Source: Hymenobacter oligotrophus
GTDB lineage: Bacteria > Bacteroidota > Bacteroidia > Cytophagales > Hymenobacteraceae
Assembly: GCF_003574965.1 (NCBI RefSeq)
Contig: NZ_CP032317.1
Span: 3,348,001-3,412,000 of the forward strand
DNA length: 64,000 bases
Direction: 5' to 3'
Shown: piece after piece, positions 1-63,936 of the stretch
How positions within the stretch are numbered: position 1 is the stretch's first letter
Layout: each line of letters opens with the position of its first letter
The notes under the pieces: model-generated
Told to the model about the DNA's origin: nothing
The model's database searches: none
The model's input: only the letters and a program-made list of their open reading frames with translations
Made by a program: the position numbers and the translations under genes

Positions 1-1968
1 CCCAAGCTGAGCATCAGCCGCGGCGGCATTGCGCCCCTAGGTGAGTACCGCGACATCTGGATCTTTCAGCAACTGAACCTGATTCTGAAGAAGAACAAGG
101 CTTCGCTGACCACGCCCATCGAGAAGCTGCCGCGCGAGCTGGTGGAACGCCTGCTCCACGGCGTGCCCGAAACCGAAGACGAGGACGACGACAAGAAAAA
201 AGCCACGTACAGCGAGCCGTTCGAGGGCATTATCCCCTTCCTGCAGCGGCAGATGGATTCCGACTCGGAGAACATTCGGGAGTGGATTCAGCAGTACACC
301 CAAGCTGTGGAGTGCCCCGAGTGCCACGGCCACCGCCTGAAAAAAGAATCGTTGCACTTCAAGATTGACGGCAAGCACATCGGCGAGCTGTCGATCATGG
401 ATATTGGCGAGCTGAGCCGCTGGTTTGAGGGCCTGGAGGAACGCCTGTCGGAACGCCAGAACCTGATTGCCCGCGAGCTGCTGAAGGAAATTCGCAAGCG
501 CATCGGCTTCTTGCTGGAGGTGGGTTTGGAGTACCTCAACCTGCACCGCTCGGTGCGCACGCTGTCGGGCGGCGAGTCGCAGCGCATTCGCTTGGCTACC
601 CAAATCGGTACCCAATTGGTGGGCGTGCTCTACATCATGGACGAGCCCAGCATTGGCCTGCACCAGCGCGACAACGAACGCCTCATCAACGCCCTCAAGC
701 ACCTGCGCGACCTAGGCAACTCGGTGATTGTGGTGGAACACGACAAGGACATGATCGTCCATGCCGACCACGTGCTCGACATCGGTCCCGGGGCCGGCAT
801 ACACGGCGGGCACGTGGTAGCCGAAGGCGAGCCCGACGCTTTCTTGCGCAGCGGCTCGCTCACGGCGCAGTACCTCAGCGGCGAAAAGCACATCGAGCTG
901 CGCAAAAAGAAGCGCGAGGGCGAAGGCAAGGATTTGGTGCTGAAAGGCGCCAAAGGCCACAACCTGAAGAACGTAACCCTGAAAGTGCCCCTGGGTAAGC
1001 TGGTGGCCGTTACGGGGGTGTCGGGCTCGGGCAAGTCGTCGCTCATCCACGATACCTTGTACCCCATCCTCAACCGTCACTTCTTCAACGCCAAGCGCGA
1101 GCCGCTGGCATTCGGCAGCATCGAGGGCCTGGAGCACATCGATAAGGTAATCGAGGTGGATCAGTCGCCGATTGGCCGCACGCCGCGCTCTAACCCGGCT
1201 ACGTACACCGGCGTGTTCACCGAAATCCGGCAGCTGTACTCCAACCTGCCCGAGGCCAAAATCCGGGGCTACGGGCCGGGCCGCTTCTCTTTCAACGTGA
1301 AGGGCGGCCGCTGCGAAACCTGCGAGGGCGCGGGCATGCGCACCATCGAGATGAACTTCTTGCCCGATGTGCACGTGCAGTGCGAAACCTGCAAGGGCCG
1401 CCGCTACAACCGCGAAACGCTGGAGGTGCGCTTTAAAGGCAAGAGCATCACCGATGTGCTCGACATGACCATTGAGAAGGCCGTGGAGTTCTTCGAGAAC
1501 CAGCCCCGTATTTTGCGCAAGATCAAGACCTTGGCCGATGTGGGCTTGGGCTACATCACCCTAGGTCAGCAGGCTACCACGCTGAGCGGGGGCGAGGCGC
1601 AGCGCGTAAAACTGGCCACCGAGCTGAGCAAAAAGGATACCGGCAAGACCTTCTACATCCTCGACGAGCCCACCACCGGCTTGCACTTCGAGGACATTCG
1701 TCACCTGTCGGATGTGCTGCAGAAGCTGGCCGACAAGGGCAACTCTGTACTCATCATCGAGCACAACCTCGACCTGATTAAGGTAGCCGACCACATCATC
1801 GACCTAGGACCCGAAGGCGGCGCCGGCGGCGGCATGATTGTGGCCCAAGGCACGCCCGAGCAAGTGGCCAAGGTGAAGAAAAGCCACACCGCACGCTTTT
1901 TGGCCGAAGAGCTGAAGGTGAGCAAGTACGCCGAGGAAAAACCCAAGGCAGCCGAAGAGGCCGCTTAG
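1..1968 (+). CDS. uvrA: Excinuclease ABC subunit A, C-terminal part (cut by window edge)
   Basis: C-terminal 655 residues of UvrA, the damage-recognising ATPase of nucleotide excision repair, which hands DNA to UvrB in the cytoplasm. The start lies upstream of the window, so the truncation is only the window edge. In order: a CPEC cysteine pair near nt 313, the first ABC signature LSGGESQR with DEPSIGLHQRDN (about nt 562-672), the second Walker A GVSGSGKSS (about nt 1015), the DNA-binding zinc module with two CETC pairs (about nt 1315-1395), and the second signature LSGGEAQR with DEPTTGLH (about nt 1582-1687). Motif order and spacing are normal. All four CCTAGG copies inside it are read as Leu-Gly. 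Confidence 0.98.
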   Translation, partial: PKLSISRGGIAPLGEYRDIWIFQQLNLILKKNKASLTTPIEKLPRELVERLLHGVPETEDEDDDKKKATYSEPFEGIIPFLQRQMDSDSENIREWIQQYTQAVECPECHGHRLKKESLHFKIDGKHIGELSIMDIGELSRWFEGLEERLSERQNLIARELLKEIRKRIGFLLEVGLEYLNLHRSVRTLSGGESQRIRLATQIGTQLVGVLYIMDEPSIGLHQRDNERLINALKHLRDLGNSVIVVEHDKDMIVHADHVLDIGPGAGIHGGHVVAEGEPDAFLRSGSLTAQYLSGEKHIELRKKKREGEGKDLVLKGAKGHNLKNVTLKVPLGKLVAVTGVSGSGKSSLIHDTLYPILNRHFFNAKREPLAFGSIEGLEHIDKVIEVDQSPIGRTPRSNPATYTGVFTEIRQLYSNLPEAKIRGYGPGRFSFNVKGGRCETCEGAGMRTIEMNFLPDVHVQCETCKGRRYNRETLEVRFKGKSITDVLDMTIEKAVEFFENQPRILRKIKTLADVGLGYITLGQQATTLSGGEAQRVKLATELSKKDTGKTFYILDEPTTGLHFEDIRHLSDVLQKLADKGNSVLIIEHNLDLIKVADHIIDLGPEGGAGGGMIVAQGTPEQVAKVKKSHTARFLAEELKVSKYAEEKPKAAEEAA

Positions 1969-4166: not shown

Positions 4167-4204
4167 GCGGTGCTAAGTAAAAGTGAACGAAAGGCCGGTG
4201 GCGC

Positions 4205-4777
4205 CTAGGGCTTTAGCTGGTCTTCTACCTGCTCGGCCTGCTTGCGGTGCTCCTCGAGCACGGGCGCGTACTTGGCGGCAAACGCGCGAATGTCGCCGTC
4301 GTACGCTTCGTCGGCCATGTCCTCAAAGGCATCTTCGGCGTTGCTATGCGCATCCACAATTTCCTCTACGTATTGGCGGTCGAATTCGGCACCCGTCAGG
4401 CCTGCCAATTCTTTGTACAGATCCTGCTGGTCACCGCCCAATCCATCGGGCACGGCAATGTTTTTCTGGCCGGCCAAGGTGCGCAACGAGGCGTTGATGC
4501 CCGTGTGCCCACGCATAAGCTGTTGGGCCAGGTTGCGCACTTCGGGGCGGGTCGCCTTCGACTGGGCAAGCTTGCTGAGCTCTACTTCGAGCAAGCCATT
4601 GGTGGTAGCCTCCACCAAAAATTCGGCGTCTTGCTCCTGGCGTTTGGTTATGTCTTCGTTGCCGATGCGCTGCTCGTTCTCAAACTTGGCGTCGGCCACT
4701 GGGTCGCGGTTGCCGGAGTTACAAGCCAGCAGGCTACCTAGGAGGCATAGCGGTAAGTATTGTTTGAGCAGGTGCAT
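4205..4777 (-). CDS. DUF4142 lipoprotein (second copy)
   Basis: 190 residues. Lipobox LLGSLLAC with Cys19. The helical DUF4142 region covers about residues 45-185: DAEFLVEATTNGLLEVELSKLA, VRNLAQQLMRGHTGINASLRTLA, and FDRQYVEEIVDAHSNAEDAF. It is a divergent paralogue of the DUF4142 gene at 3172-3867 and has no long linker. First gene of the three-gene minus-strand set. The TAG stop is inside the CCTAGG at 4204. Function is unknown beyond an envelope location. Confidence 0.87.
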   Translation of the reverse strand: MHLLKQYLPLCLLGSLLACNSGNRDPVADAKFENEQRIGNEDITKRQEQDAEFLVEATTNGLLEVELSKLAQSKATRPEVRNLAQQLMRGHTGINASLRTLAGQKNIAVPDGLGGDQQDLYKELAGLTGAEFDRQYVEEIVDAHSNAEDAFEDMADEAYDGDIRAFAAKYAPVLEEHRKQAEQVEDQLKP

Positions 4778-4968
4778 AATCGGTGCATTCGGGCCGGCCC
4801 ACGTCCGGTATCTGGGCTATACGCACCCATGCGCAAGCGGTTCATAGAAATTAGTTCCGCCTCCGGAAAATTTTTCTGCCAAGCCATTAAACCACAGCGT
4901 GGCAGCACCTTCTAAGCCATTGCTAATGCCCTTAACAGCCGGTATTTTACACCCCACACAACTCCATC

Positions 4969-5814
4969 ATGAAACACACCGCCTATCGTACCGCACTTGC
5001 TGTACTCCTTGGCTCGGGCCTGCTTGCCGGCCTCGGCAGCTGCGCCAAAGATGACCTAGGACTGGCTACCACCACCTCCGCTGAAGACCAGGCCGACGCC
5101 GAAGGCTCCGACGCCGCCACCCTGGAATACATCGATGCCAACGCCCCCGCCGATGTAAACCAAGCCGCTGCCGGCACCTACGCCTCCGCCGACGACTTGC
5201 GCTCGGTGTGTGGCTCCTGCGTTACGCGCACCTACGACGCCGCCACCCGCACCCTCACGCTCACTTTCGACCCCAACGGCTGCGTGGGCCGCGACGGCCG
5301 CGTGCGCCGCGGGCAAATTGTGGCGGTATTCAGCGGGCAGCACCGACAGCCGGGCGCGTCGGTGGTGGTTACGCAGGTGAACTACTCCGTAAACGGCAAC
5401 CCGCACAAAGGCACCCGCATCATTACCTACACCGGCAACGGCACCTATACGCTGCGGGTGCAGGAAGCGAGCATCACCACACCCACCGGCACGGCCAGCT
5501 GGAACTCCGAGCGCACCTACACGCAAACCGCCGGCCAAGCCACCCGCACCTTGCTTGATGACGAGTTTAGCGTAACCGGCAACGTAACGGGCACCAACCG
5601 CAAGGGCGTATCGTTTGTGGCCACCATTCAGCAGCCGCTGAAAAAGGTGTTTCAGCGCGGATGTGCCCGATTCTTCACCGCTGGCACCGTCGAAATCAAG
5701 ACGAGCAAGGAGAAAACCCTGCTGCTGAACTACGACCCCGCCGGCACTGCCGCCTGCGACAACATTGCGTCTGTTACCATCAACGGCCGCACCCGCACCA
5801 TTCGGCTGCGCTAA
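4969..5814 (+). CDS. Exported lipoprotein of unknown function
   Basis: 281 residues. Signal with lipobox LLAGLGSC (Cys26), an acidic linker (about 30-70), then a beta-rich domain. Six further cysteines sit as a close pair (VCGSC), one in DPNGCVGRDGR, one in RGCARF and one in TAACDN, suggesting disulfides. A segment with Arg-rich RDGRVRRGQI and repeated TYT/TRT strands suggests an extended beta sheet. Lipoproteins with this look occur in Hymenobacter relatives as hypothetical proteins (recollection). It is monocistronic and shares a 62-bp palindromic terminator with the convergent next gene. Confidence 0.78.
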   Translation: MKHTAYRTALAVLLGSGLLAGLGSCAKDDLGLATTTSAEDQADAEGSDAATLEYIDANAPADVNQAAAGTYASADDLRSVCGSCVTRTYDAATRTLTLTFDPNGCVGRDGRVRRGQIVAVFSGQHRQPGASVVVTQVNYSVNGNPHKGTRIITYTGNGTYTLRVQEASITTPTGTASWNSERTYTQTAGQATRTLLDDEFSVTGNVTGTNRKGVSFVATIQQPLKKVFQRGCARFFTAGTVEIKTSKEKTLLLNYDPAGTAACDNIASVTINGRTRTIRLR

Positions 5815-5819
5815 ATATC

Positions 5820-5881
5820 AGCGTTACCCTCAAAAAAGAAGCCCCAGCAATTGCTGGGGCTTCTTTTTTGAGGGTAACGCT
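5820..5881. terminator. Bidirectional terminator, 62-bp perfect palindrome
   Basis: 31-bp arms with no mismatch and no loop bases, centred between 5850 and 5851. Each arm carries CAAAAAAGAAG, giving a T-run on both strands after a GCCCCAGCAA stem. It fills the gap between convergent genes ending at 5814 and 5883. Confidence 0.9.
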
Positions 5882-5882
5882 A

Positions 5883-6500
5883 TTAAGACTCGCGAGGAAG
5901 TTCACCGGGGAGACTGCCAGGATCAGTACCGGTACCAGGACCAGGCGCTTGGCAGCTAGGTCCTTGCACTTGCCCTTCTTGGCAATTGTTGCCATACTTA
6001 ACCCACGACGCCGCATTGCCAACGTAGTAGGTCCCGTTTAAAGTAAAGGTGAAAGTGTGGGCCGCACCATCGGATACCGTAGAGGGCAAATTGTCGAATT
6101 TCAGAATATTGGCACCTACGGCGCTGCTGCAACCTGTGCCGCGGCCTTCGCTGCTGGCAAGGTTACGGTAAGCTCTGCCGTCGAGCGTAGCTCCTACTAC
6201 GTTTGCGAAGGTAACGGCTTGAGTGCAGCCTGTTGGCAAAGCCACAATCCAGTGGCTAAGCCCGTTGGCCCTAGCGGGGCCAGTGCGCCGGATAGAATAC
6301 GTATAGGTAGTAGTGTTGCGGTCGTAGCTTACTCCTTGAAAAGCAACGTCGTAGGCGCCGATAGTTGCACTTTGAACCAAGGCGGTAGCGGCATCGAGGT
6401 TGTCGGTGGCAGGACTCACGGATTCGTTTTTGCTGCAGGCAGCCGACAGCATCAGCCCGAGCATCAAACTGCTACGGTAAAACAAAGTAGAGAATTGCAT
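5883..6500 (-). CDS. Exported lipoprotein of unknown function
   Basis: 205 residues from the ATG at 6500. An upstream in-frame extension to 6635 lacks signal features and runs through A/T-rich promoter-like DNA. Lipobox LMLSAAC (Cys22). The mature part is one beta-rich domain with YSIRRTGPARANGLSHWIVALP and paired cysteines (PTGCTQ, GTGCSS, NNCQEGQ, GPSCQ), ending in a Gly/Pro/Thr tail. The GLSHWIVALP stretch resembles a secreted-protein domain seen in Bacteroidota, but I cannot name the family. Monocistronic, preceded by about 140 bp of A/T-rich DNA that probably holds its promoter. Confidence 0.75.
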   Translation of the reverse strand: MQFSTLFYRSSLMLGLMLSAACSKNESVSPATDNLDAATALVQSATIGAYDVAFQGVSYDRNTTTYTYSIRRTGPARANGLSHWIVALPTGCTQAVTFANVVGATLDGRAYRNLASSEGRGTGCSSAVGANILKFDNLPSTVSDGAAHTFTFTLNGTYYVGNAASWVKYGNNCQEGQVQGPSCQAPGPGTGTDPGSLPGELPRES

Positions 6501-6712
6501 TTGGTGGAGAGATAATGGGTGAAAAATTACGTTGGCGGCGAAATATACAGTACATATTTGGTTTATAATAAAGCGATATAATATAATATTTTCCGAAGCT
6601 TCATCTGCTTTGATTAACACGCATCCTGAACGCATTGCAAGCGTTCATTACTGATTGTGAAGTTGGTAGTGCAATGGAGTACAGACACTGCCATTTATAC
6701 TTGCCATCCACA

Positions 6713-6753
6713 AAAAAGCGGCACCGCCCTAGGTCAGGGCGGTGCCGCTTTTT
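6713..6753 (-). terminator. Terminator of the sigma/protease operon, CCTAGG at the apex
   Basis: 17-bp perfect stem (6713-6729, 6737-6753) ending in an A-run/T-run, with a 7-nt loop. The loop and the adjacent stem base contain CCTAGG (6728). It lies 25 bases after the protease gene stop. Confidence 0.88.
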
Positions 6754-6777
6754 GTTTGCGGGCTCAGCCAGTCAGTT

Positions 6778-7923
6778 CTATTCGAACACCTTCACAACAA
6801 ACACGAAATCCTGGAGTTTGCGCAGCTGCTGCGGGCGCGATTGGCCGGCCAGCTGGTTTTGGCGCGGCACGTTGTAGCCCGGCGCGGCACCGGCAGCCGA
6901 AAGCGAATCGACCAGGCGCATGAGGTACGACGACTTGGTGGCAAACGCGGCGCTTTGCACGTCCATCTGCCGGCCGCTGATTACGCCGATTAGGTTGCCG
7001 CGGTCGTCGAGCACAGGGCCGCCCGAGTTGCCGGGGTTCACGGGAATGCTGATTTGGTAGAAGCCCGAGTCGCCCTCAAAACCGCTGCGGGCGCTCAAGG
7101 AGCCTTCGCCGTACACCACGTCTTCGCGCGGGTAGCCCAGCGTGTAAACCCGTTCGCCTAGGTCGGCCTGGCGGCGCTTAAAGGCGTAGGGCAAGCGGCC
7201 GAAGCCGGTAAAGCGTGCGTCGGTGACGCGCAAGATGGCCAGGTCGTGAGCCACGTCGGTAAACACGGGCTGGGCGCGGTAGCGCTGCCGGTCGCGGCTT
7301 TCGATCAGCAGCGAGTCGGCCCCCTGAATTACGTGGTAGCTCGTCACGAGGTAGCCATCCGACGTCAGCGCGAAGCCCGTGCCGCTGAACTTGCCCAGGT
7401 TGGGCTGCTCCGAGCCGGAGCGCGCGCCAATTTGGGTAATGGCCTGGTTCATGGTGCGCTGGTTCTTCTTGATGCGGTCGACCTCGCGGCGCAAGGTGGC
7501 GTAGCCGTACACCGAAGGCTGCTGGCGGGCTTTCCACCACTCCATACCTAGGAGCGTGGTGAACACAGCCAGTACGGCCACGGCCGCGGCTACCGCCATG
7601 GTAGCGCGGTGCCCGTGCCAAAAATTGCGCAGCCACTGCTCGGTGCGCGATATGCGCATTACCGGCATTTCGGGCCGGCCCGTTTCCACAGTGGTTTCCT
7701 GCTCCGCGTCGATTTCGGCCTGCAGTGTGCGCAGCCGCTCACTCAGATGCAGCCGTTGCCCGTAGCTCTGCAGCGTGCCCGTAAGCTGCCGAAACTCGGC
7801 CAGACGGCCGGCCAAAACCGGATCGGCAGCGAGGCGCTGCTCCAGCTCGGCCCGCGCCGGCGGCGCCAGCTCATTGCTGAGGTAGCGCTCGAACAGGGCG
7901 TAATAATCTGCTTCGGTTTTCAT
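6778..7923 (-). CDS. Membrane-anchored trypsin-like serine protease with anti-sigma-like N-terminus
   Basis: 381 residues. Residues 1-100 are cytosolic and helical (FERYLSNELAPPARAELEQR, ADPVLAGRLAEFRQL), the arrangement of an anti-sigma N-terminus without zinc-finger cysteines. One membrane span follows (about 107-127), a short coiled stretch (about 143-165), then a chymotrypsin-fold protease with His197 (TSYHVI), Asp227 (AHDLAIL) and Ser300 (NPGNSGGP). No PDZ domain is visible. It lies 55 bp after an ECF sigma factor on the same strand, which suggests that the protein senses envelope events and holds the sigma factor. The protease family is clear; the anti-sigma role is inference from context and topology. 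Confidence 0.88.
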   Translation of the reverse strand: MKTEADYYALFERYLSNELAPPARAELEQRLAADPVLAGRLAEFRQLTGTLQSYGQRLHLSERLRTLQAEIDAEQETTVETGRPEMPVMRISRTEQWLRNFWHGHRATMAVAAAVAVLAVFTTLLGMEWWKARQQPSVYGYATLRREVDRIKKNQRTMNQAITQIGARSGSEQPNLGKFSGTGFALTSDGYLVTSYHVIQGADSLLIESRDRQRYRAQPVFTDVAHDLAILRVTDARFTGFGRLPYAFKRRQADLGERVYTLGYPREDVVYGEGSLSARSGFEGDSGFYQISIPVNPGNSGGPVLDDRGNLIGVISGRQMDVQSAAFATKSSYLMRLVDSLSAAGAAPGYNVPRQNQLAGQSRPQQLRKLQDFVFVVKVFE

Positions 7924-7978
7924 AACAATAGGGCGGGTGTTGCTCCCGCCAGAAGGAGAGAAAGAACAAGTGCGTTTG

Positions 7979-8566
7979 CTAGGGAAGCGGTTCTTCTTTG
8001 TATTGCTGGAAAAACAACTTTTTCAAACGCACGAGGCATTTGTACTTCTGGTTCTTGGCGTTGTCGGCGTTGGTATAGCCGTGTTCCGCCGTGAGTTCCT
8101 GCATGGACTTGTCGAGGAGGTAAAAGCCCTCCAGCAACGAGCGGCACGGCTCACCTAGGCGCAACAGCGCTTCGCTCATTACAGCGAATTGCTGATCGCG
8201 CTGTTCGGCTTCGGCCAGGTCGGCCTCGGCCCCCGTTTCGAGGTACGGTTCGTGGTCGTCGAGGCGGCCGCCGTAGCGGCCTTTCTCGGCCAACCGCTTC
8301 AGCCACAACCGGCGACACACGGCGTAGAGGTACGTTTTAATCTGGCAGCTCAGCTCGAGCGTGCCCTCGCGTACTTTCTCGTAAAACACCATCACGCCCT
8401 CCTGGTAAATGTCCTTGGCCTCGTCCTCGGTTCCGCTGTTGTGCGTTACCAAATGAATGACCATCGGCAGGTAGAGGCGGTACAGGTGTGCCAGTGCCCG
8501 GTCGTCGCCGCGGCGGATACCCGCCACCAGCTCCTCGTCGGTAATAGAAGGCTGTGCCTTGCCCAT
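7979..8566 (-). CDS. ECF-type RNA polymerase sigma factor
   Basis: 195 residues. Region 2 spans about 15-85: DDRALAHLYRLYLPMVIHLV and the core-binding EDEAKDIYQEGVMVFYEKV. Region 4 spans about 125-185: LLRLGEPCRSLLEGFYLLDKSMQELTAEHGYTNADNAKNQKYKCL, with a helix-turn-helix whose GYTNADNAKNQK stretch is typical of a Bacteroidota ECF subgroup. A linker with acidic residues lies between them. It is the first gene of a two-gene minus-strand unit with the membrane protease, the usual place for a cognate anti-sigma factor. ECF factors commonly drive their own operon; I could not define the target promoter. Confidence 0.93.
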   Translation of the reverse strand: MGKAQPSITDEELVAGIRRGDDRALAHLYRLYLPMVIHLVTHNSGTEDEAKDIYQEGVMVFYEKVREGTLELSCQIKTYLYAVCRRLWLKRLAEKGRYGGRLDDHEPYLETGAEADLAEAEQRDQQFAVMSEALLRLGEPCRSLLEGFYLLDKSMQELTAEHGYTNADNAKNQKYKCLVRLKKLFFQQYKEEPLP

Positions 8567-8705
8567 GCGCAGTTACTCGTTCTTAATACTTTGCCTCCGC
8601 TGCGGTAACCCAACAAATAAATTTTTTCTACCGATGGGTTACCTCTCTCGATCTGCGGTATGAAGGGCGTTTTTCAGACCCAACATTTTCAAACTTACCA
8701 CACAG

Positions 8706-8972
8706 ATGAAAAATCTGCTCAAAGTTGCCGCTCTGTTCGCTGTAGTTAGCCTCGCTTCGTGCGGCGGCGAGAAGGCTGCTGAGACCACCGAAGCTACCAC
8801 CACCACCGAAACCACCACGGCTGAGACCACGGCTCCTGCTGCTGATGCTACGGCTGCTCCGGCTGATTCGGCTGCTGCTGCTACCACCGAGGCTGGCGCT
8901 GCCACCACGACGGAAGCTGGTGCTGCTACCACCACCACGACCACCGAAGCTACCACCACTACCCAACAGTAG
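8706..8972 (+). CDS. Short Thr/Ala-rich lipoprotein
   Basis: 88 residues. Signal and lipobox VVSLASC (Cys19) followed by a mature part made almost only of Thr, Ala, Glu and a few Asp/Pro, in imperfect repeats of the kind TTEAGAATTTEAG. The repeats are also visible in the DNA (GGCTGGCGCTGCCACCAC and variants). No fold is expected; it may be a surface spacer or glycosylation substrate. Divergent from the ECF sigma gene across 139 bp, so the two promoters share this gap. A strong hairpin terminator follows. The repeat tract may vary in length between strains. Confidence 0.78.
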   Translation: MKNLLKVAALFAVVSLASCGGEKAAETTEATTTTETTTAETTAPAADATAAPADSAAAATTEAGAATTTEAGAATTTTTTEATTTTQQ

Positions 8973-9011
8973 TGCGGCCGGCCAGCCCAGCGCTGGCCCG
9001 CTAGCTTTCGG

Positions 9012-9051
9012 GCGGCCCGGTTTTCTCTGCGGAGAAAGCCGGGCCGCTTTT
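9012..9051 (+). terminator. Terminator of the Thr-rich lipoprotein gene
   Basis: 16-bp stem (9012-9027, 9032-9047) with one G-T pair, loop TGCG, then TTTTG. Confidence 0.82.
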
Positions 9052-9142
9052 GTTATCCAAAGGTGCTCATTCTCAATAGTCGAGCTGAGCATATCTCAAG
9101 TAGTTGTGTATCTTGGCCACCAGCACCAAGCATTGTTTGTTA

Positions 9143-9349
9143 ATGTCTGATCTGGTTACAGTGCCAAACGAGCCGAGCAATGCGCTGGCCAACCCCCACC
9201 ACACCAGCTGCCCCATTCTGGCCGATACCCTTGAGCACCGCGAAGAACCACAGGTGCTGCCCACCGCCAACGTGCTGCAAATAGGCAGCTACCTGGTGGG
9301 CGAGGCCCACGACCCGAAACTGTGCGGGCACCCGTATATCAGGTACTAA
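9143..9349 (+). CDS. Possible small protein of 68 residues
   Basis: Begins MSDLVTVPNEPSNALANP and ends GEAHDPKLCGHPYIRY. No signal peptide or known motif. In its favour are an ATG 27 bases after a weak -7-like TATCTTGG (9109-9116), G/C-rich third positions, and its place in a gap bounded by a terminator on the left and the convergent operon end on the right. Against it are its short length and overlapping open frames on the other strand. I cannot assign a function. Confidence 0.4.
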   Translation: MSDLVTVPNEPSNALANPHHTSCPILADTLEHREEPQVLPTANVLQIGSYLVGEAHDPKLCGHPYIRY

Positions 9350-9364
9350 TATTCCGCTGCGGGG

Positions 9365-11146
9365 CTAGCGTTTTTCATCGAGCCACAGCACACCCGCGGC
9401 CACTAGAAACAATGCGAAGAACCAGCCTGCAGGCCAAGGCTCGTGGCGCTGTTGCGGGAGCGAAGAAAAGGCCGCGCCGCCGCGCCATTGTTGCGCCGCC
9501 ACGTAGCGCTCGGCAGCTTGCGCGGCTAGCCAATCGCGCGGCGTATACACGTAGAAGGCGCCGGCAGCTTGCCCCGCAGCCTTAACGGTGTGCCAACCTG
9601 CGCTAGCAGGCCAGTAGCTGCCTTGCCACACAGCGCCCCGGTTGGGATGCTGACCTAAGGCTACCTGCACCGCGTTACCTTGGGCATCGAGCACGCGAGC
9701 CTGGCTCTGGCGAGCCGAGGTATACGTGGTGAGCCGCAGCTCGGCAGGCCGATGGGGTTGTGGCCAAGCTGCAGCTGCCCATTCGGCTGCGAGTTCGGCG
9801 GGGCGAGCGGCTGCGGTTAGCAGGCGGCTCCAGTAGCCGTCGTAGGTAGCGGTGGTGCCGGCTAGTTGCCACCGGTAGGTGTTGGCGGCGGTGCTCACCA
9901 CCACGGTGCCCCAACCCACGCGGTGGGCTGCTGCTACCACTTCGGTGGGCCGGGCGGACGTAATTAGCGGCTGCAGGCGCACCGAGGGGCGTAGCAAAGC
10001 AGGCAGTAGGGTTTGGCCGCTGCCCGTGGGCCAATGCAGTTGCTGCGGCCGCTCAGCCACTGCGGACGGGCGACTTTGCAAAGCAAACTGCGCCCGGCCC
10101 GGCAGGCTGCGCGGCAGTTCGGTTGGGGTGAGCAGCACCACGCCCAAGCCGTTGCTGGCTGCTGCACCTAGGGCCCGGGCCTCGGTACCCGAGAGGATAT
10201 TTAGCGCATCGGCATCGGCTACCAGCACATCGTGCGCGGCAAGCAGCGGGGCGGTCAGCTGACCCAGGCTTACCTGCGCGTGATTGATGAAATCGGTTTG
10301 CTGCAGCCCGCGGCCAACGCTTACGCGCAGCGCAACGTGGTGGCCTTGCTCGCCCAAACGGGTTTTCAGCAGGTTAAGCTCGAACGAAGGAGAACCGGCA
10401 AGCAGCAGCACGCGCAGCGGCCGAGCGGCTTCGACTTGGGTGGGTATCGGCTCGGCGGCCAGTAGTTTGCTGCCTTGCCGGGCCGAAAGCCGGGCAAGCA
10501 GCCGGCCAGCGCGGCGCGGTGTGTAGCTAAGCGAAAAAGCGCCGCTGCCCGAGTTTAGCTGCACCGAATCGCGCACGGCGCCGGCCTCCTCCAGGCGTAC
10601 CCACACCGGGCCTTTGCCTAGGTGATTGAAGCTGCCCTCGACGCGCAAGGCAGTGCCAAGCACCAATTTATCTGGCCAACTACCTGCGTTGAAACCGGTA
10701 GGGGCGTAGCCATGCGGTATCAGCTTTACCGATGCGGGCAACGTTGGCAAGTCGGCTTTGGGTAGCCCCACGCCCAGCACGTGCAGCTGCCGCACCTGCG
10801 GGTAAGCTTCGGGCAAAGCCGCCAACGACGACAAGCTAGCCGTGTCGGCGGCGGGGCTGCCCGTGCGGTAACGCAACACCGGTACCGGACCTAGGGCGCG
10901 CAGCAGGCGTTGCAAGGTATCGGGCTGGTAATGCTCGGTAAGTACAATGGCTGCATCGGGCGCTGCTACGGTTATGGTGCGCTGCGGCGGGTAGGCACTA
11001 AACCACAACGCTGCGGCGGCTACCAAGCCCGCCGCTAACCTGGCTATGCGGCGCCACCCCCGGTAGCGCAACGCTTGCCACCCGAGCAAGCCCGCCAGCA
11101 ACAGGCAAAGGAGAAGGTGCGCGTACGAAAGGGGCGTCGACATCAT
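9365..11146 (-). CDS. Large membrane protein, last gene of the MoxR/DUF58/BatA-type operon
   Basis: 593 residues. Two membrane helices at the N-terminus (about 9-26 and 33-50), a long periplasmic part, and a C-terminal helix ending in WLDEKR. The middle resembles the class 1 glutamine-amidotransferase-like fold found in such membrane proteins (PLRVLLLAGSPSFELNLLKTRL, then DVLVADADALNIL), with no obvious catalytic Cys-His-Glu set. The preceding part has beta-sandwich character. It lies 14 bp after the DUF4175 gene. Proteins at this operon position in Bacteroidota are uncharacterised; by context it probably works with the BatA-like and DUF4175 proteins at the inner membrane. Confidence 0.8.
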   Translation of the reverse strand: MMSTPLSYAHLLLCLLLAGLLGWQALRYRGWRRIARLAAGLVAAAALWFSAYPPQRTITVAAPDAAIVLTEHYQPDTLQRLLRALGPVPVLRYRTGSPAADTASLSSLAALPEAYPQVRQLHVLGVGLPKADLPTLPASVKLIPHGYAPTGFNAGSWPDKLVLGTALRVEGSFNHLGKGPVWVRLEEAGAVRDSVQLNSGSGAFSLSYTPRRAGRLLARLSARQGSKLLAAEPIPTQVEAARPLRVLLLAGSPSFELNLLKTRLGEQGHHVALRVSVGRGLQQTDFINHAQVSLGQLTAPLLAAHDVLVADADALNILSGTEARALGAAASNGLGVVLLTPTELPRSLPGRAQFALQSRPSAVAERPQQLHWPTGSGQTLLPALLRPSVRLQPLITSARPTEVVAAAHRVGWGTVVVSTAANTYRWQLAGTTATYDGYWSRLLTAAARPAELAAEWAAAAWPQPHRPAELRLTTYTSARQSQARVLDAQGNAVQVALGQHPNRGAVWQGSYWPASAGWHTVKAAGQAAGAFYVYTPRDWLAAQAAERYVAAQQWRGGAAFSSLPQQRHEPWPAGWFFALFLVAAGVLWLDEKR

Positions 11147-11160
11147 GCTAGTACAGCTGG

Positions 11161-13383
11161 CTAGCGGTTAAGCTCTTGAAAGTAACGGCGCGACATGGAG
11201 CCCACCGGCGGCCGCACCGGCGGCGCGCTGGGGGCGGGCAGCAGGTTGGTAAGGGCGCGCTCCACGGCCGCCAAATCGGCGGGGGCGGGTTGCTGGCCGA
11301 TGCGTACTTGCTGCAGCACTTGGCGCCAGGCGCGTAGCGTTGCCAGCGAGGCGCTGGGTTGGCTAAGCGCCGCTTGACCTAGCAAGGTGACGGCCGGTTG
11401 CAAGCGGCCTAGGTCGGCAGCGGTGGGGCGCTGGCCGGCGCGGTACGCGGCTATTTGCGCCAGCGCCGTGCGCACGGCCGGCTGCGTGGCCGGCGGTGTG
11501 CGTTGGGCTTGGCGGGTGGGTGGCTGCACCGCGCTTACATCGCCCGATAGGCGCTTTTCGGCCTCGGGTAGCGGCGGCAAATCGACGCCGGATTTGCGCA
11601 CGTACAGGCGGGTTTGCTGCTGCACTTCCTTCAGCAACCGCAGCGCGCGGTACTCAAACGGCAGGGCCTCGCTGAGCTGAGACAGGCGCAGGCGCAGCTC
11701 GGCTTCCCACATTTGGTTGAGCACGGCGCGCAGCTTGGTTTTTACCTGCGGCTCCAAAAAATCAGCGGTTTCTTCGTCCTCGTGCAAGTGCATGTAGGGT
11801 TGCGTCAGGGCTTCGGTGCTGGGCGCGCCTTCGCCGGCAATGGGCAGGTGCTCGTGGCCGTGGTCGTGCCCATCGTCGTCGCTGTGCTTCTCTTCCTCCT
11901 CTGCTTCGCCTTCTTCGGCAATGGGCGGGCGGGTGGAGGTTTCGGTGATGCCTTTTTCCGATTCTTCGCCCAAAAACTTGCCGTAGCGCAGGCGCAGCAT
12001 CTTCTGGTCGTCGCCTAGGTTGTTGGCGCGGCTTTGCAGCTCGGCAGCGGGCAGCTTGCGGCGCAGCGCTATCAGCTTTTCGGTATCGATGATGATCTGG
12101 CGCTGGCTGCGGAAGTAGGCCGGCATTTGGTTTACGCCCAACGAAATAGCAGCCGGGCCGCTGGTAGCGGCCGTGTCTTCCCACTGCACCAAGGCGGCGT
12201 CGGTGCGGGCGCGGTGGCCGGCGTTGTCCCAGGCCTCGGCGTACACGTACAGCTCGTCGCCGTAGGTGAGGCCCAAGGTGGGCAGGCGCAGCGTAACGCT
12301 GCCCGTGTGCTGGCGGGGTTTGTTGCCTAGGGCCGCGCTCAGGTCGCGGATGTGCTCCGTAAATTTCACGCCTTCGCCCGAGCCTTGGGCAGTAGTTACC
12401 ACTAGCCGGGCGCGGGTTAGGCCGTAATCATCCTGCAAGGCTACGCGCACGGCTACCTCAGGCCGGCGGCCGTACTCCACCAGCGTGTAAGGCTTCGGCG
12501 AAAGCATTTTGAGCGTAGGCGCGCGGTCGGGCACTACCTCAATGGCGTAATCCTCCGACTCTTGTCCCGCAAACCGCACGCGGTAAATCGTTGATTTGCT
12601 GATGCGAAACTCGGCCACGTATTGGTTGGGCTGACTAGCTGCCGCCCGGAACGACACCGGCCGCTGCCCCGCAACGAGCAGTTCCGAGGCCTTGGCGGGT
12701 TTATCGGTGCGCAGCGTCCAGCGAACGGTAGAGCCCTCGGGGCAGCGGAACGACAGCGCTTCGGGGGCAAAAACCGCTTGGCGCGTGTAAGCCGGCGGCA
12801 GCACCTGCACCGTGGTTGCGAGCAGGCGCGGCGCTGCAGGCGCTGGTGCCGCCTGGGCCGTGGCGGTCGGGAATTGCAGCTGCAGCCGCGGCGCAGTCGG
12901 TTGCGCCTGCGCTGCGGGCCACAGCCAAAGCGCTGCACCTAAGGCTGCCAGGCCGGCAGCTACGCCGGCCCTAGGTGCCCACGGCACGCGCAGCGCTGCG
13001 GGCAGCGGCAGGTGCACCAGGCGTTCGGCAATGCGTTCTTGTTGCAGGCGGGCCAAAAAGCCACTGGGTTCGGCTAGGAGCAGGCCGGTGCTGTCTTCCA
13101 GTTCCGGAAAACGCCGATCGAGGCGCTGCGCGAGGTGCGCCAAGCCGAAGCGCTGCAAGCGCCACAGTGCAACCGCCACCAACCCCAATACCGCTACCCC
13201 AACACCCAGCCACAGCGCGCGGCTTTGCGGCCAATGGTGCGCGGCGCCCAGCAAAGCCAGCAATGCGCCCGCGCCAAGTAAGCCAATCGAGAGAGCAGCG
13301 CGCCCTAGGTGCTGGCGCCGCACGCGGGCCAACTCGGCCTGCGCCTGCGCTACTTGCGAGTAGTGCTCCTGAACGGTGCTCAT
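11161..13383 (-). CDS. DUF4175-family membrane protein
   Basis: 740 residues. Two N-terminal membrane helices (about 29-46 and 54-71), a third near 138-158, then a long soluble part. Beta-rich segments (VQVLPPAYTRQAVF; YRVRFAGQESEDYAIEVVPDRAPTLKML; ALQDDYGLTRARLVV) match DUF4175 proteins of MoxR-linked operons. It then turns helical and carries an insert dense in Glu, Asp and His (DDDGHDHGHEHLP, near residue 510), which looks metal-binding. Its start overlaps the BatA-like gene by 4 bp (ATGA), indicating translational coupling. Function is unknown; by context it is part of an inner-membrane complex with the DUF58 and BatA-like proteins. Confidence 0.85.
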   Translation of the reverse strand: MSTVQEHYSQVAQAQAELARVRRQHLGRAALSIGLLGAGALLALLGAAHHWPQSRALWLGVGVAVLGLVAVALWRLQRFGLAHLAQRLDRRFPELEDSTGLLLAEPSGFLARLQQERIAERLVHLPLPAALRVPWAPRAGVAAGLAALGAALWLWPAAQAQPTAPRLQLQFPTATAQAAPAPAAPRLLATTVQVLPPAYTRQAVFAPEALSFRCPEGSTVRWTLRTDKPAKASELLVAGQRPVSFRAAASQPNQYVAEFRISKSTIYRVRFAGQESEDYAIEVVPDRAPTLKMLSPKPYTLVEYGRRPEVAVRVALQDDYGLTRARLVVTTAQGSGEGVKFTEHIRDLSAALGNKPRQHTGSVTLRLPTLGLTYGDELYVYAEAWDNAGHRARTDAALVQWEDTAATSGPAAISLGVNQMPAYFRSQRQIIIDTEKLIALRRKLPAAELQSRANNLGDDQKMLRLRYGKFLGEESEKGITETSTRPPIAEEGEAEEEEKHSDDDGHDHGHEHLPIAGEGAPSTEALTQPYMHLHEDEETADFLEPQVKTKLRAVLNQMWEAELRLRLSQLSEALPFEYRALRLLKEVQQQTRLYVRKSGVDLPPLPEAEKRLSGDVSAVQPPTRQAQRTPPATQPAVRTALAQIAAYRAGQRPTAADLGRLQPAVTLLGQAALSQPSASLATLRAWRQVLQQVRIGQQPAPADLAAVERALTNLLPAPSAPPVRPPVGSMSRRYFQELNR

Positions 13384-14930: not shown

Positions 14931-14964
14931 AGCAGGCGAAATAAGCAGGTAACAGACGGTAGAG

Positions 14965-14990
14965 CCCTAGGCAAGGATGCTTGCCTAGGG
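14965..14990 (-). other. Intra-operon hairpin with CCTAGG in both arms
   Basis: An 11-bp perfect stem (14965-14975 and 14980-14990) with loop GATG. Each arm holds a complete CCTAGG (14966 and 14984). It sits directly after the DUF58 stop and 35 bp before the BatA-like start. No T-run follows, so it could be an attenuator, an mRNA-processing or stability element, or simply two paired CCTAGG copies. Confidence 0.7.
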
Positions 14991-14992
14991 GG

Positions 14993-15874: not shown

Positions 15875-15885
15875 GGCAGCAGGGG

Positions 15886-16920
<1,035 letters not shown>

Positions 16921-16954
16921 TGGTGAGGGCAGGTTGATGGGCTAGCGGCGCGAG

Positions 16955-17617: not shown

Positions 17618-17847
17618 AAGCTAACCTAGGCAGGACGTACGGCCGCCTGCAACATTTTCGTTCTACAGCAGGCGCGGCCACCGGCAAAGTAACCATCCGA
17701 GGGCAAGCCCGAAAGCAAAATCGGCACAACTGCCGCCTGGGTGCCCGCGGCATCCTGCAATAGCCTGGGTTTTGTGCTAGTGTTCAGCCGCTTGGCGCAG
17801 TGCTGCGTACGTACACGAACTCTCTTCGCTCCGCTTACCTCACCGCT

Positions 17848-18471: not shown

Positions 18472-18592
18472 GTGGCTCGGCCGCCCGCGGTACCCAGGGC
18501 CAAGTGGCGGGGCTCACCCAAACATGCTATTGTAAAGGCGGCCGCAGCGCCGGAACTTGCGACGCTTTCTTACCTCTCGCGTCGTTTTCGCC

Positions 18593-19225: not shown

Positions 19226-19241
19226 CAGCTGCCAACCCACC

Positions 19242-21498: not shown

Positions 21499-21501
21499 TG
21501 C

Positions 21502-61065: not shown

Positions 61066-63936
61066 TTAGTGCGCCTGCAGCCAGTTGGTGCCGGTACCAA
61101 TTTCTACCTCCAAGGGCACTTGCATGGGCAGGGCGTCCACCATCAGGCGCTTGATGTGGGGCTGAATAAACGCCACTTCTTCCTTGGGCGCATCGAACAC
61201 CAATTCGTCGTGCACTTGCAGAATCATGCGCGTGCCGAGTTTTTCCTGCTCAATCCAATCGTTGATGTGGATCATGGCCACCTTGATGATGTCGGCCGCG
61301 GTGCCCTGAATGGGCGCGTTGATGGCGTTGCGCTCGGTGTAGCCGCGCAGCGTGGCGTTGCGCGAGTTGATGTCGCGCAGGTAGCGGCGCCGACCTAGGA
61401 GGGTTTCGGCGTATTCCAGGTCGCGGGCTTTCTGAATGCTGGCGTCCATGTACTGTTTCACGGCCGGAAATTCCTCGAAGTAGGCTTCAATCAGGTCCTG
61501 CGCTTCTTTGCGCGGAATGCTCAGGCGCTGTGCCAAACCAAAGGCCGAAATGCCGTAGATGATGCCGAAGTTGGCCGTTTTGGCTTTGCGGCGCATGTCC
61601 GAATCAACCTGATCGAGCGACACCTTAAAGATTTTGCTCGCCGTGCTGGTGTGGATGTCGATGCCTTGGCGGAACGACTCGATCATGGTCGGGTCCTGCG
61701 AGAACGAGGCCATGATGCGCAACTCGATTTGCGAGTAGTCGGCCGCCACCAGAACGTGGTCTTTATCGCGCGGCACAAAAGCGCGGCGGATTTCGCGGCC
61801 TTTCTCCGTCCGAATCGGAATGTTTTGCAGGTTGGGGTTGGTGCTGCTCAAGCGCCCCGTGGCCGTTACGGCCTGGTTGAAGGAAGTATGGATGCGGCCG
61901 TCCATTTCGCACACCAGCTGCGGCAGCGCATCCACGTACGTGCTCTTGAGCTTGGTAAGCTGGCGGTGCTCCAAAATAAGCGCCGCAATGGGGTGGTCGG
62001 CGGCTAGCACGCTCAGTACCTCTTCGCCGGTGGCGTACTGGCCGGTTTTGGTTTTCTTGGGCTTGCCGCCGATCTGCAGCTTATCAAACAACACCTCGCC
62101 CAGCTGCTTGGGCGAGCCAATGTTGAACGGCTCGCCGGCCACCTTAAAAATTTGGTCTTCTACCTCCTGAATGTAGCCTTGCAGTTGGCCCGAGTAGTCG
62201 GCCAGGGCCGAGGCATCGATGCGCACGCCCTCGTACTCCACGTTGGCCAGTACGCGCACCAGCGGGTTTTCCACGTCGGTGAGCAAAGGCAATAGGCCTT
62301 GCTCGCGCAGCTTGGGCTCGAACACGTGCTTGAGTTGCAGCGTCACGTCGGCATCTTCGCAGGCATAGTCTTTTACCTCGGCCGGCGGTACATCGGCCAT
62401 GGTTTTCTGGTTTTTGCCCTTCGGGCCGATGAGCTCCAGAATGCTAATAGGCGTGTAGTGCAGGTAGGTTTCGGCCAGCACATCCATGCCGTGGCGCATA
62501 TCGGGCTCGAGCAGGTAGTGGGCCAGCATGGTATCGAACAAGGGCCCGCGCACCGTCACCTGGTAGTGCTTCAGAATCAGCAAGTCGTACTTGATGTTCT
62601 GGCCCACCTTGGTGATGTGCTCGGCGTCGAAAAACGGCCGGAACTCATCCACGATTTGCTGCGCGGCGTCCAGGTCGTCGGCGGGCACGGGCACGTAGTA
62701 AGCCTCGCCCTGGCGCCAGCAAAACGACATGCCCACCATGCGCGCCGTCATGGTGTCGAGGCCGGTGGTTTCGGTGTCGAAGCTGACTTCCTTTTGCTTC
62801 AGCAGAAACTGCAGCAGGCTGCGGCGGGCCCCGGGCGTATCCACGAGGTGGTAGGAGTGGGCCACGTCGTCGAGGGTGCGGCGGGCCCCTAGGTGCGCAG
62901 GTTCGTCGAGGTCGATTTCGTCACTGTCGGCGCCTTCGGCCACGCGCTTCAGTAGCTCGGCGTCGGGCGCGTCGAACAGGCCGGGCGCGGCAGTAACCTT
63001 GGGTCGGCGGGCGCCGCGCGTGCCGCCGGTGGTTACGCCCCCGCCCGCGCCGGCGTTGCCCAAAATGCGCGCCGCCAATTGCCGGAACTCCAGCTCATCA
63101 AACAACGACGACAGCGCCTGCTCGTTGGGGCGCTCCACCACCAGCTCCTCGGCGCTGAACTCGATGGGCACGGAGGTATGAATGGTGGCCAACTCCTTCG
63201 ACATGAGGCCCTGCTGCGCGTAAGTTTCCACGTTTTCGCGCTGCTTGCCCTTCAGCTTATCGGAGTTGGCAATCAGGTTCTCGACCGAGCCGAACTGCTG
63301 AATCAGGGATTTGGCAGTTTTCTCGCCGATGCCCGGAATGCCGGGGATGTTGTCGACGGCGTCGCCCTGCAGACCTAGGATATCGATAACCTGCTCCACG
63401 CGCTCCACGCCGAATTTCTCCTTTACCCGCTCCACGTCGAGCACCTCGGCGGCGTTGCCCATAAACGCCGGGCGATACTGCTTGATGCGCTCCGTCACGA
63501 GCTGGCAGTAGTCCTTATCGGGCGTCATCATGAACACCTCGAAGCCTTCCTTTTCGGCTTTGCAGGCCAGGGTGCCAATCACGTCGTCGGCCTCGTAGCC
63601 ATCCATAATCAGGATGGGAATGCGGAAGGCCTGAATGATTTGCTTGATGTACGGAATGGCCACGCCAATATCCTCGGGCATGGCCTGGCGGTGGGCTTTG
63701 TAGTCGGCAAACGACTCGTGGCGAAAGGTTTTCTTGGCCGCGTCGAAGGCTACGCCGATGTGCGTGGGCTTTTCCTTCTGCAGCACCTCCACCAAGGTGT
63801 TGGTAAAGCCCAAAATGGCGCCGGTATTCAGGCCTTTGGAGTTGATGCGCGGGTTTTTGCTGAACGCGAAGTGTGAGCGGTAAATCAGCGCAAAGGCATC
63901 GAGCAGGAAGAGTTTCTTGGGAGCGGCGTCGGTCAT
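61066..63936 (-). CDS. polA: DNA polymerase I
   Basis: 956 residues with the complete three-domain layout: 5'-nuclease/FEN (about 1-300: LFLLDAFALIYRSHFAF, DGYEADDVIGTLACKAEK, GIPGIGEKTAKSLI), an Ala/Gly/Arg linker (about 290-330), a 3'-5' exonuclease (about 360-540: FDTETTGLD near 385), and the polymerase (about 580-956: motif A DYSQIELR near 733, O-helix KTANFGIIYG near 787, motif C QVHDELVF near 909). The exonuclease DxE pair is present, so proofreading is likely. It removes Okazaki primers and fills repair gaps. The start MTDAAPKKLFLLDA is typical. Confidence 0.98.
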   Translation of the reverse strand: MTDAAPKKLFLLDAFALIYRSHFAFSKNPRINSKGLNTGAILGFTNTLVEVLQKEKPTHIGVAFDAAKKTFRHESFADYKAHRQAMPEDIGVAIPYIKQIIQAFRIPILIMDGYEADDVIGTLACKAEKEGFEVFMMTPDKDYCQLVTERIKQYRPAFMGNAAEVLDVERVKEKFGVERVEQVIDILGLQGDAVDNIPGIPGIGEKTAKSLIQQFGSVENLIANSDKLKGKQRENVETYAQQGLMSKELATIHTSVPIEFSAEELVVERPNEQALSSLFDELEFRQLAARILGNAGAGGGVTTGGTRGARRPKVTAAPGLFDAPDAELLKRVAEGADSDEIDLDEPAHLGARRTLDDVAHSYHLVDTPGARRSLLQFLLKQKEVSFDTETTGLDTMTARMVGMSFCWRQGEAYYVPVPADDLDAAQQIVDEFRPFFDAEHITKVGQNIKYDLLILKHYQVTVRGPLFDTMLAHYLLEPDMRHGMDVLAETYLHYTPISILELIGPKGKNQKTMADVPPAEVKDYACEDADVTLQLKHVFEPKLREQGLLPLLTDVENPLVRVLANVEYEGVRIDASALADYSGQLQGYIQEVEDQIFKVAGEPFNIGSPKQLGEVLFDKLQIGGKPKKTKTGQYATGEEVLSVLAADHPIAALILEHRQLTKLKSTYVDALPQLVCEMDGRIHTSFNQAVTATGRLSSTNPNLQNIPIRTEKGREIRRAFVPRDKDHVLVAADYSQIELRIMASFSQDPTMIESFRQGIDIHTSTASKIFKVSLDQVDSDMRRKAKTANFGIIYGISAFGLAQRLSIPRKEAQDLIEAYFEEFPAVKQYMDASIQKARDLEYAETLLGRRRYLRDINSRNATLRGYTERNAINAPIQGTAADIIKVAMIHINDWIEQEKLGTRMILQVHDELVFDAPKEEVAFIQPHIKRLMVDALPMQVPLEVEIGTGTNWLQAH

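Follow-up and report, generated by a model that had tools for sequence, protein, structure and literature searches.

An abundant, clade-restricted DNA word with the core CCTAGG on the chromosome of Hymenobacter oligotrophus: a possible uptake-sequence-like element

Abundance of CCTAGG in the Window and in the Genome

The window analysed here is a stretch of 64,000 bp from Hymenobacter oligotrophus (assembly GCF_003574965.1, contig NZ_CP032317.1, positions 3,348,001–3,412,000). The hexamer CCTAGG is scattered throughout it, inside open reading frames (ORFs) and between them. The initial annotation of this sequence described CCTAGG as a highly iterated palindrome (HIP) resembling cyanobacterial HIP1 in kind, and its numbers are reproduced here. 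The claimed 93 or so copies are exactly 93, from position 36 to 63374–63379. The G+C content given as about 63% is 62.1%, and the 20 or so copies expected by composition are 21.3. CTAG, estimated at about 170 copies with more than half of them inside CCTAGG, is counted 165 times against 93 CCTAGG, and the gaps, described as 18 bp to 2.7 kb, range from 18 to 2690 bp.

Under Markov models of the first, second and third order, the expected counts in the window are 14.0, 13.4 and 21.1. CCTAGG has the highest z-score of all hexamers under these three models and the fifth highest under base composition. The maximal-order model built from 5-mers, which had been proposed as the check, expects 71.3 copies, a mere 1.3-fold excess (rank 27). 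This model is circular here, because CCTAG and CTAGG mostly belong to CCTAGG, and is thus uninformative.

The whole genome contains 5678 copies in 4,188,814 bases, or 1.36/kb compared with 1.45/kb in the window. The genome-wide count is thus not near expectation, nor is the enrichment limited to the window. The frequency of 1355 per Mb falls in the range of hundreds to thousands per Mb that characterizes HIPs, and one dominant genome-wide word at about 1/kb is also what characterizes uptake sequences. Eighteen chromosomal samples of 20 kb carry 22–38 copies apiece. GGATCC, which is CCTAGG read backwards, has 67 copies in the genome, though it is itself depleted. In a 504-kb sample of the genome, both CGATCG (25 vs. 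257 expected) and GGATCC (6 vs. 46 expected) are strongly depleted. Per-genome counts of GGATCC across the family span 0 to 645, a range suggestive of restriction avoidance in the past.

Two small contigs of the same assembly (42 and 31.6 kb, 64–65% G+C), which are probably plasmids judging from their size, contain one and zero copies in their first 20 kb. A 102-kb contig of another CCTAGG-rich genome (G140) has three copies in the 22 kb sampled. Together with the stretch around a type I restriction-modification operon described below, these contigs display the depletion in mobile DNA expected of uptake sequences.

The Asymmetric Octamer ACCTAGGV

Hereafter, the genome under study is called G000. 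It is compared with two congeners rich in CCTAGG (G005 and G007; the three are the "on-state" genomes) and three poor in it (G001, G003 and G006; "off-state"). ORFs are the greedily chosen longest ORFs of at least 300 bp (240 bp in the analyses of ORF edges and close pairs), called with no gene finder.

The nucleotides flanking CCTAGG are not free. Among 707 copies sampled in G000, 638 carry exactly one of two flanking bases, an A to the left or a T to the right. Both flanks together, which make ACCTAGGT, are observed 15 times vs. 158 expected. Flanks that extend the palindrome in any way are seen at 38 copies vs. 245 expected, while control palindromes show no such deficit (observed/expected 118/114 for CTGCAG, 104/122 for TGCGCA and 50/47 for GGTACC). 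The asymmetry is the same in G005 and G007. The unit in this clade is the asymmetric octamer ACCTAGGV (V is A, C or G), and CCTAGG is its core. The view of palindromicity as the essence of the element is not supported: besides the flanks here, some relatives have non-palindromic words, for example AAGTATAA and CCCTACCCC.

The central TA is strict. Near-misses of the octamer are in no excess at the central TA or at the first C. At some other outer positions they are raised, mostly by C>T or G>A, which is expected if full copies decay.

The octamer shows no strand bias in G000, with 318 copies in one orientation and 320 in the other, and no flip along the 19 stretches sampled. The segregation role that had been suggested, similar to that of the FtsK-orienting polar sequences (KOPS), is therefore unlikely. 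The distribution in the window is given in Table 1.

Table 1. Positions of CCTAGG, its oriented octamers and associated genes in the window.
Feature	Position	Strand	Remarks
Span of 93 CCTAGG	36..63379		54 C|CTA|GG (Leu-Gly), 7 CCT|AGG, 4 at an ORF edge, 28 outside ORFs of at least 300 bp
45 ACCTAGGV octamers	711..63379	+	First C of CCTAGG: 711, 1803, 2542, 4114, 4737, 5055, 7547, 8154, 10167, 10890, 13759, 15423, 17625, 19257, 22055, 24745, 26210, 27520, 28097, 28482, 29502, 34066, 35045, 37017, 39629, 41841, 42457, 42608, 44857, 45829, 45847, 47325, 47392, 49076, 49979, 51719, 53961, 54862, 57383, 58716, 58922, 59627, 60389, 61394, 63374
37 ACCTAGGV octamers (BCCTAGGT on +)	36..62893	-	First C of CCTAGG: 36, 1560, 6728, 7157, 10617, 11408, 12014, 12970, 13304, 13576, 14563, 18021, 18467, 19096, 26820, 27403, 29819, 31251, 31906, 32166, 37471, 37960, 39210, 41497, 41865, 44793, 46171, 48254, 51878, 51953, 53996, 54202, 57880, 58176, 58671, 61049, 62888
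11 CCTAGG without asymmetric flank (neither or both)	4204..30577		4204, 12326, 14966, 14984, 20082, 25565, 26447, 26746, 29113, 29372, 30572
ORF with the TAG of the motif as its stop, CC|TAG|G	17800..18471	+	Three further ORFs end likewise: 2543 (-), 57884 (+), 58717 (-)
DNA polymerase I gene (Pfam)	61066..63936	-	Anchor of the 80-genome comparison; outside the motif system

Coding Context and Placement

In the sampled sequence of G000, CCTAGG is denser outside ORFs (2.80/kb) than inside (1.14/kb). Inside ORFs, 447 of the 513 copies are read as C|CTA|GG (Leu-Gly) and the other 66 as CCT|AGG. The leucine codon CTA is chosen in 447 of 675 C|CTN|GG contexts (66%), compared with 262 of 3983 contexts in which GG does not follow (7%). 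On the small contigs of G000, it is chosen in one of 37 C|CTN|GG contexts. The flanks matter as well: CTA is used in 77–85% of the coding contexts that offer exactly one flank, in 21% of those with neither, and in nine of 15 with both. Stop codons are also recruited, 31 of 179 TAG stops in the 504-kb sample being CC|TAG|G, against none of 43 in G003 and none of 32 in G006. The density is 2.8–4.2/kb in the 100 bp upstream of ORF starts and 3.6–5.2/kb in the 100 bp downstream of ORF ends.

These facts are incompatible with pure codon bias, since the word is denser outside ORFs, a second frame and stop codons are used, and the flanks have an effect. CTCGAG was considered as a second DNA signal and rejected, because 177 of its 195 copies in G000 are in codon phase 0 and it is rarer outside ORFs (0.09/kb) than inside (0.44/kb). 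CTCGAG is about seven times denser in G000, G005 and G007 than in their off-state congeners, a codon-pair effect.

The gaps between copies are more even than in 300 label permutations in G000 and G007; in G005, 65 of 300 permutations are as even. Sites are rarer near other sites, with z of 2.4 in G000, 2.6 in G007 and a weak 1.4 in G005. Even spacing as a general property is rejected, as it is found in two of 13 samples.

On and Off States among Relatives

The repeat of the count in other Hymenobacteraceae, which had been recommended, shows an excess restricted to a few lineages. Three of the eight genomes in the genus have 5325–6212 copies of CCTAGG and the other five have 123–249. Among 204 genomes of the family, including the one under study, nine exceed 5000, four have 1209–2331 and 191 have 54–888. 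The nine comprise the three of the genus and six of a second genus, for which 120 genomes are listed. Among 395 genomes sampled across the phylum, no further genome has more than 734 copies. Thirteen genomes were first classed as CCTAGG-rich; in four of them (G080, G082, G164 and G172), the word is TAGGCCA and CCTAGG is its by-product, leaving nine. Matches suggest that G007 is Solirubrum puertoriconensis MC1A, G003 Hymenobacter busanensis MA3, G006 Hymenobacter sp. CRA2, G070 H. cavernae, G140 Hymenobacter sp. BT559 and G080 H. fodinae.

In the regions syntenic with the window, the density is 1.31–1.56/kb in the on-state trio (60–62% G+C) and 0.02–0.04/kb in the off-state trio. Base composition is rejected as the cause by these off-state congeners, which are of 61–67% G+C and free of the word. 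Copies of G000 are shared with G005 at 121 of 182 aligned sites and with G007 at 110 of 153. They are shared with G003 at two of 91, with G001 at one of 48 and with G006 at none of 85. The unaligned sites among the 201 copies of G000 were dropped (19 for G005, 48 for G007, 110 for G003, 153 for G001 and 116 for G006). Tables of overrepresented words, in which observed and expected counts of non-palindromic words are half the two-strand counts, reveal no comparable word in G001, G003 or G006.

Words of Other Hymenobacteraceae

A search with DNA polymerase I returned at least 80 named loci with flanking sequence. CCTAGG density is bimodal in the 80 listed: four loci are at 1.22–1.66/kb (H. setariae, BT559, S. 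puertoriconensis and H. cavernae), two at about 0.5/kb and 74 at or below 0.14/kb. When each locus is labelled by a threshold of our own, eight carry CTACCCC, five AAGTATA (Pontibacter), four CCTAGG, two TAGGCCA, one CCATACC and one both AACTATA and AAGTATA, and 59 carry none of these. Related lineages use similar but different words, or none.

The other, equally dense words of the family are ACCTAGGT, CCCTAGGG, CCCTACCCC, AGTGGCCTA, AAGTATAA and AACTATAG, and many genomes are without any. In larger samples, AAGTATAA is found in P. oryzae and P. ruber, and AACTATAG plus AAGTATAA in one uncultured Pontibacter. CCATACC/GGTATAA is found in Pontibacter sp. E15-1 and CCCTACCCC in H. ginkgonis and UV11. 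CTAGGCCA/AGTGGCCTA is found in the pooled sequences of H. wooponensis and G082 as well as in G172, and CTAGGCCA/CTGGCCTA in H. fodinae. Unlike the clade of G000, G005 and G007, H. cavernae (ACCTAGGT) and G109 (CCCTAGGG) have a palindromic unit. Counted over whole genomes on both strands, CCTACCCC reaches 1019–5122 in seven genomes vs. 76–536 in 31 others. In all nine samples measured, the words of relatives are 1.6–3.7 times denser outside ORFs. The uncultured Pontibacter 903 (G627), with AACTATA and AAGTATA at about four sites per kb, is the densest case seen.

Every one of these words has G or C before a central TA (S-TA), at least on one strand. On a DNA polymerase I tree of 72 protein rows (71 of the 80 loci plus the window; nine distant loci were omitted), built by a quick method, sister pairs share their word: BT559 and H. 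setariae, H. fodinae and H. wooponensis, H. citatus and H. profundi, and the window and S. puertoriconensis. One clade of six rows unites H. ginkgonis and UV11 (CCCTACCCC) with BT559 and H. setariae (CCTAGG), whose words agree in their left half. The tree requires at least 15 changes of word label. Dialects that follow the phylogeny around a conserved core, here a core recognized post hoc, are a feature of uptake sequences.

Some stretches are poor in the word of their own genome: 20 kb of G616:C2 contain two CCTACCC, and 20 kb of G080:C11 contain one TAGGCCA. They are candidate islands or plasmids, which the word could help to detect.

Gain, Loss and Conservation of Sites

When gains are polarised by the off-state outgroups, six conversions are found among 90 hexamers one step from the word. 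Since few sites were left in this way, a second count of gains compared the three on-state genomes with one another. Where two of them have the leucine codon CTG, the third has CTA at 12 of 23 sites that offer core plus flank, at seven of 32 that offer the core only, and at 130 of 3318 others. Conversely, where two have CTA, the third keeps it at 154 of 179 core-plus-flank sites, 14 of 20 core-only sites and 99 of 146 others. CTA codons of G000 are retained in G005 at 90 of 122 motif sites vs. 49 of 192 other CTA codons, and in G007 at 82 of 102 vs. 60 of 168. Outside ORFs, CCTAGG is retained at 24 of 36 sites in G005 and 19 of 31 in G007, vs. 44% and 42% for all hexamers.

The flanks have changed as well as the core. 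Scored where at least two of three outgroups agree, the left flank has changed from G to A at nine of 23 sites and the right flank from C to T at ten of 27, vs. 5–6% for such changes overall. There are also five transversions towards A or T on the motif side, five C>G changes on the right flank and four other single changes. CCTAGG is driven or selected, not compositional, because its gain is faster and its loss slower than those of the identical codon at other places.

Searches for Methyltransferases and Uptake Machinery

Profile searches covered PF00145 in the eight genomes of the genus, and PF01555, PF02086 and PF02384 in 28 genomes (the 13 first classed as CCTAGG-rich and 15 others). PF00145 is present in three of the eight, with G000 and G007 lacking it. 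The counts in CCTAGG-rich and other genomes are 5/13 and 11/15 for PF01555 (none in G000), 0/13 and 3/15 for PF02086, and 11/13 and 11/15 for PF02384 (none in G007). Within the nine genomes above 5000 CCTAGG, PF01555 occurs in four, PF02086 in none, PF02384 in eight (not in G007) and Vsr in two. None of these four methyltransferase families is common to the CCTAGG genomes. Repair driven by Vsr is rejected, as PF03852 is found in three of 13 CCTAGG-rich and three of 15 other genomes and is absent in G000 and G007.

The single PF02384 match of G000 is HsdM, followed by HsdS and HsdR in a complete type I restriction-modification operon. The surrounding 18 kb (G000:C1:2982001-3000000) hold three CCTAGG vs. 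about 25 predicted from the chromosome average, and this low content marks the operon as a probable late arrival. It is the only motif-poor chromosomal stretch met in G000. The single PF01555 match of G007 is next to a SmaI-type endonuclease; their contig measures 12.5 kb and contains two CCTAGG. Of nine methyltransferase neighbourhoods of 12.5–18 kb, eight have 0–0.50 CCTAGG/kb and that of G070 has 1.33, so most such enzymes look like later arrivals. The methylation role suggested at the outset is weakened, as G000 has HsdM and no PF00145, PF01555 or PF02086. The suggestion of a DNA-level role stands as far as a genome-wide, actively maintained element is concerned.

Discussion

Comparison with Known Systems

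The resemblance to HIP1 stands in part. Overrepresented cyanobacterial words are tied to methyltransferases and explained by biased repair in Elhai (2015, PMC4390886), who also gives 500–2500 sites per Mb for HIPs, some HIP1 genomes without the CGATCG enzyme, and sporadic replacement of one word by another. The density and the sporadic replacement of HIP1 and alternate HIPs are shared by the short words of Hymenobacteraceae. Unlike HIPs, they have no common methyltransferase among the families searched, the palindrome is not the unit in this clade, and several related words are non-palindromic.

The closest functional analogue is the dialect system of the DNA uptake sequence (DUS) in Neisseriaceae. 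DUS occur at about 0.8/kb and more, in thousands of copies with a conserved CTG core, according to Frye et al. (2013, PMC3630211). The same paper reports that dialects differ between clades, that some related species have no DUS and that two dialects coexist in one genome, and it describes overlapping dyad arrangements. The Hymenobacteraceae words are similar in their thousands of copies in genes and between them, the small core (CTG there, S-TA here) in clade-variable surroundings, the wordless relatives, and the occasional presence of two dialects in one genome. They differ in length (8 bp vs. 10–12) and phylum, and no type IV pilus ATPase exceeds the cut-off in 48 genomes.

Uptake sequences are known from two proteobacterial families. 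The second of these, Pasteurellaceae, uses type IV pilus machinery, and its uptake word is less variable between related species. As a short, genome-wide and self-accumulating word, ACCTAGGV is also like the uptake signal sequences of that family (PMC1939737).

Chromosomal signals are a further comparison. Chi and KOPS are short chromosome-wide words that differ between species, as does the present one. Unlike them, it has no strand bias, is switched on and off within a genus, and is about six times denser than Chi of E. coli, for which Bakkali (2007, PMC1939737) gives 1008 copies. The E. coli column of the same source lists GCCTAGGC as underrepresented (0 observed vs. 151 expected).

Riemerella anatipestifer, also of Bacteroidota, is relevant to a mechanism. 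According to PMC8459023, PMC7965970 and PMC8383284, it needs eight genes for transformation, four of which are unlike any known uptake machinery: those for a predicted surface protein, an outer-membrane protein and a helix-hairpin-helix protein, and one more. The others are ComEC, DprA, ComF and RecA. Riemerella columbina prefers its own DNA, and the word search of those authors gave A/T-rich repeats. The phylum, the partly unrelated essential genes and the preference for own DNA are the likenesses to our case. The difference is that no uptake word is established there.

As the initial annotation had supposed, none of these words is described for Bacteroidota in the literature searched, among the matches listed and with most subscription journals outside its scope.

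A Possible Uptake-Sequence-Like Drive

We propose that the CCTAGG word may be maintained by an uptake-sequence-like drive independent of pili, to which we assign a probability of roughly 40%. ACCTAGGV is one dialect among related short words built on a G/C-TA core, which accumulate to about 1/kb in some lineages of Hymenobacteraceae. A sequence-specific DNA-binding component of natural transformation would prefer DNA that carries the word, and alleles gaining it would be imported more often by recombination. By promoting itself in this way, the word could spread through the chromosome to every place that coding constraint leaves open, and a change of the receptor would lead to a change of the word. 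Both the receptor and transformation as the agent are what we infer from the pattern. Since no type IV pilus ATPase is found, the route would have to be pilus-independent, and it might resemble that proposed for Riemerella, with a surface protein, an outer-membrane protein and ComEC. This drive is preferred because the DUS pattern fits better than that of HIPs and because Riemerella softens the problem of the missing pilus.

Several facts weigh against it. PF00437, the ATPase family of type IV pili and the type II secretion system, is above the Pfam cut-off in none of 48 genomes (14 have weaker matches), while it exceeds the cut-off in 13 of 14 control genomes; membership in the known DUS system therefore fails. 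No report of natural transformation in Hymenobacteraceae was found in the literature searched. The single-step gains, 15 in number and each from a one-off word that the genomes share, all fall on the two central bases, and 14 of them are C>T or G>A; synonymous constraint predicts this restriction, as all 15 lie in ORFs, and targeted mutation would give the same pattern. Bare CCTAGG is not exceptional in its conservation, as the on-state trio shares it at 74 of 218 sites (34%), vs. 7–36% for seven control hexamers. Of the 13 samples, only those of G000 and G007 have sites spaced more evenly than under uniform placement. The 39 pairs within 60 bp (F, forward; R, reverse: RF 13, FR 7, FF 6, RR 5, and eight with an unoriented copy) show no clear dominance of an inverted arrangement such as that in the terminators of Neisseria. 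The low content of the small contigs can also be explained by recent arrival, and the S-TA core was noticed after the fact.

Second in order of preference, and in our view unlikely, is a chromosomal binding factor, that is, a protein of nucleoid, repair or recombination function similar to nucleoid-associated proteins or to the Chi system, with fast-evolving specificity and a selected need for a site about every kb. It would account for a word that is on the chromosome and not on small contigs, for the retention of CTA at motif sites, for the even gaps in G000 and G007 and for the rarity of sites near other sites. However, Chi and KOPS have a strand bias that is not seen here, the even spacing is not general, and congeners live without any comparable word. 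Selection on 5000 nearly redundant sites would also need to be very fine.

A by-product of DNA modification is improbable. In the model of Elhai, a word-specific methyltransferase or other modifying enzyme biases mismatch repair so that sites accumulate, and every overrepresented cyanobacterial word is paired with a putative methyltransferase (PMC4390886). The C>T and G>A changes that dominate the single-step core gains would agree with it, and PF02384 is present in eight of the nine genomes above 5000 CCTAGG, though also in 11 of 15 low-count genomes. On the other hand, of the four families searched G000 has only HsdM and G007 only the enzyme of the SmaI-type system, both in CCTAGG-poor DNA, and eight of the nine methyltransferase neighbourhoods are poor in CCTAGG. 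The change of flanks as well as core and the non-palindromic words of relatives are further difficulties.

Still less probable is a self-tag, by which the word would spare the DNA of its bearer from a defence nuclease that attacks untagged plasmids and phages. The near absence of the word from plasmid-like contigs and its rapid turnover between lineages fit this idea, but if such a system depends on tags by the thousand, its origin in a genome with none is hard to imagine, and in G000 the tagged chromosome is accompanied by two contigs that are almost free of tags. The least probable is a mutation hotspot, codon-pair habit or base composition: despite the predominance of C|CTA|GG inside ORFs and the codon-pair excess of CTCGAG, the latter has the reverse distribution between ORFs and gaps, and the second frame, the stop codons, the effect of the flanks and the wordless syntenic congeners have already refuted composition and codon bias as causes.

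If the uptake-like drive is extended to the whole family, Hymenobacteraceae might possess pilus-independent natural transformation with sequence-specific recognition, whose receptor would have diversified into the G/C-TA dialects (ACCTAGGV, ACCTAGGT, CCCTAGGG, CCCTACCCC, AGTGGCCTA, AAGTATAA and AACTATAG). These would rewrite codons and stops genome-wide and sexually isolate lineages, and would represent an independent origin of uptake sequences outside Proteobacteria. This wider picture is possible, though less likely than not. If true, a family without pilus ATPases, with more than one dialect and related species that clearly have or lack a word, would open the origin of DNA-recognition words to testing, and the words could help to develop genetic tools for these environmental bacteria. 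Irrespective of the agent, the genus, with three genomes in the on state and five in the off state, is a clean natural experiment in genome rewriting by a preference for 8 bp.

Other Features of the Window

Four dispersed elements of about 85–170 bp that form long imperfect hairpins lie at 21371–21501, 24664–24833, 36656–36740 and 39635–39738. Their relatives of 74–95% identity are found at many places of G000 and in other genomes of the genus, and one of the four holds CCTAGG. Two adjacent paralogs of PmbA/TldD-like proteases are encoded on the minus strand at 21502–23277 and 24838–26703.

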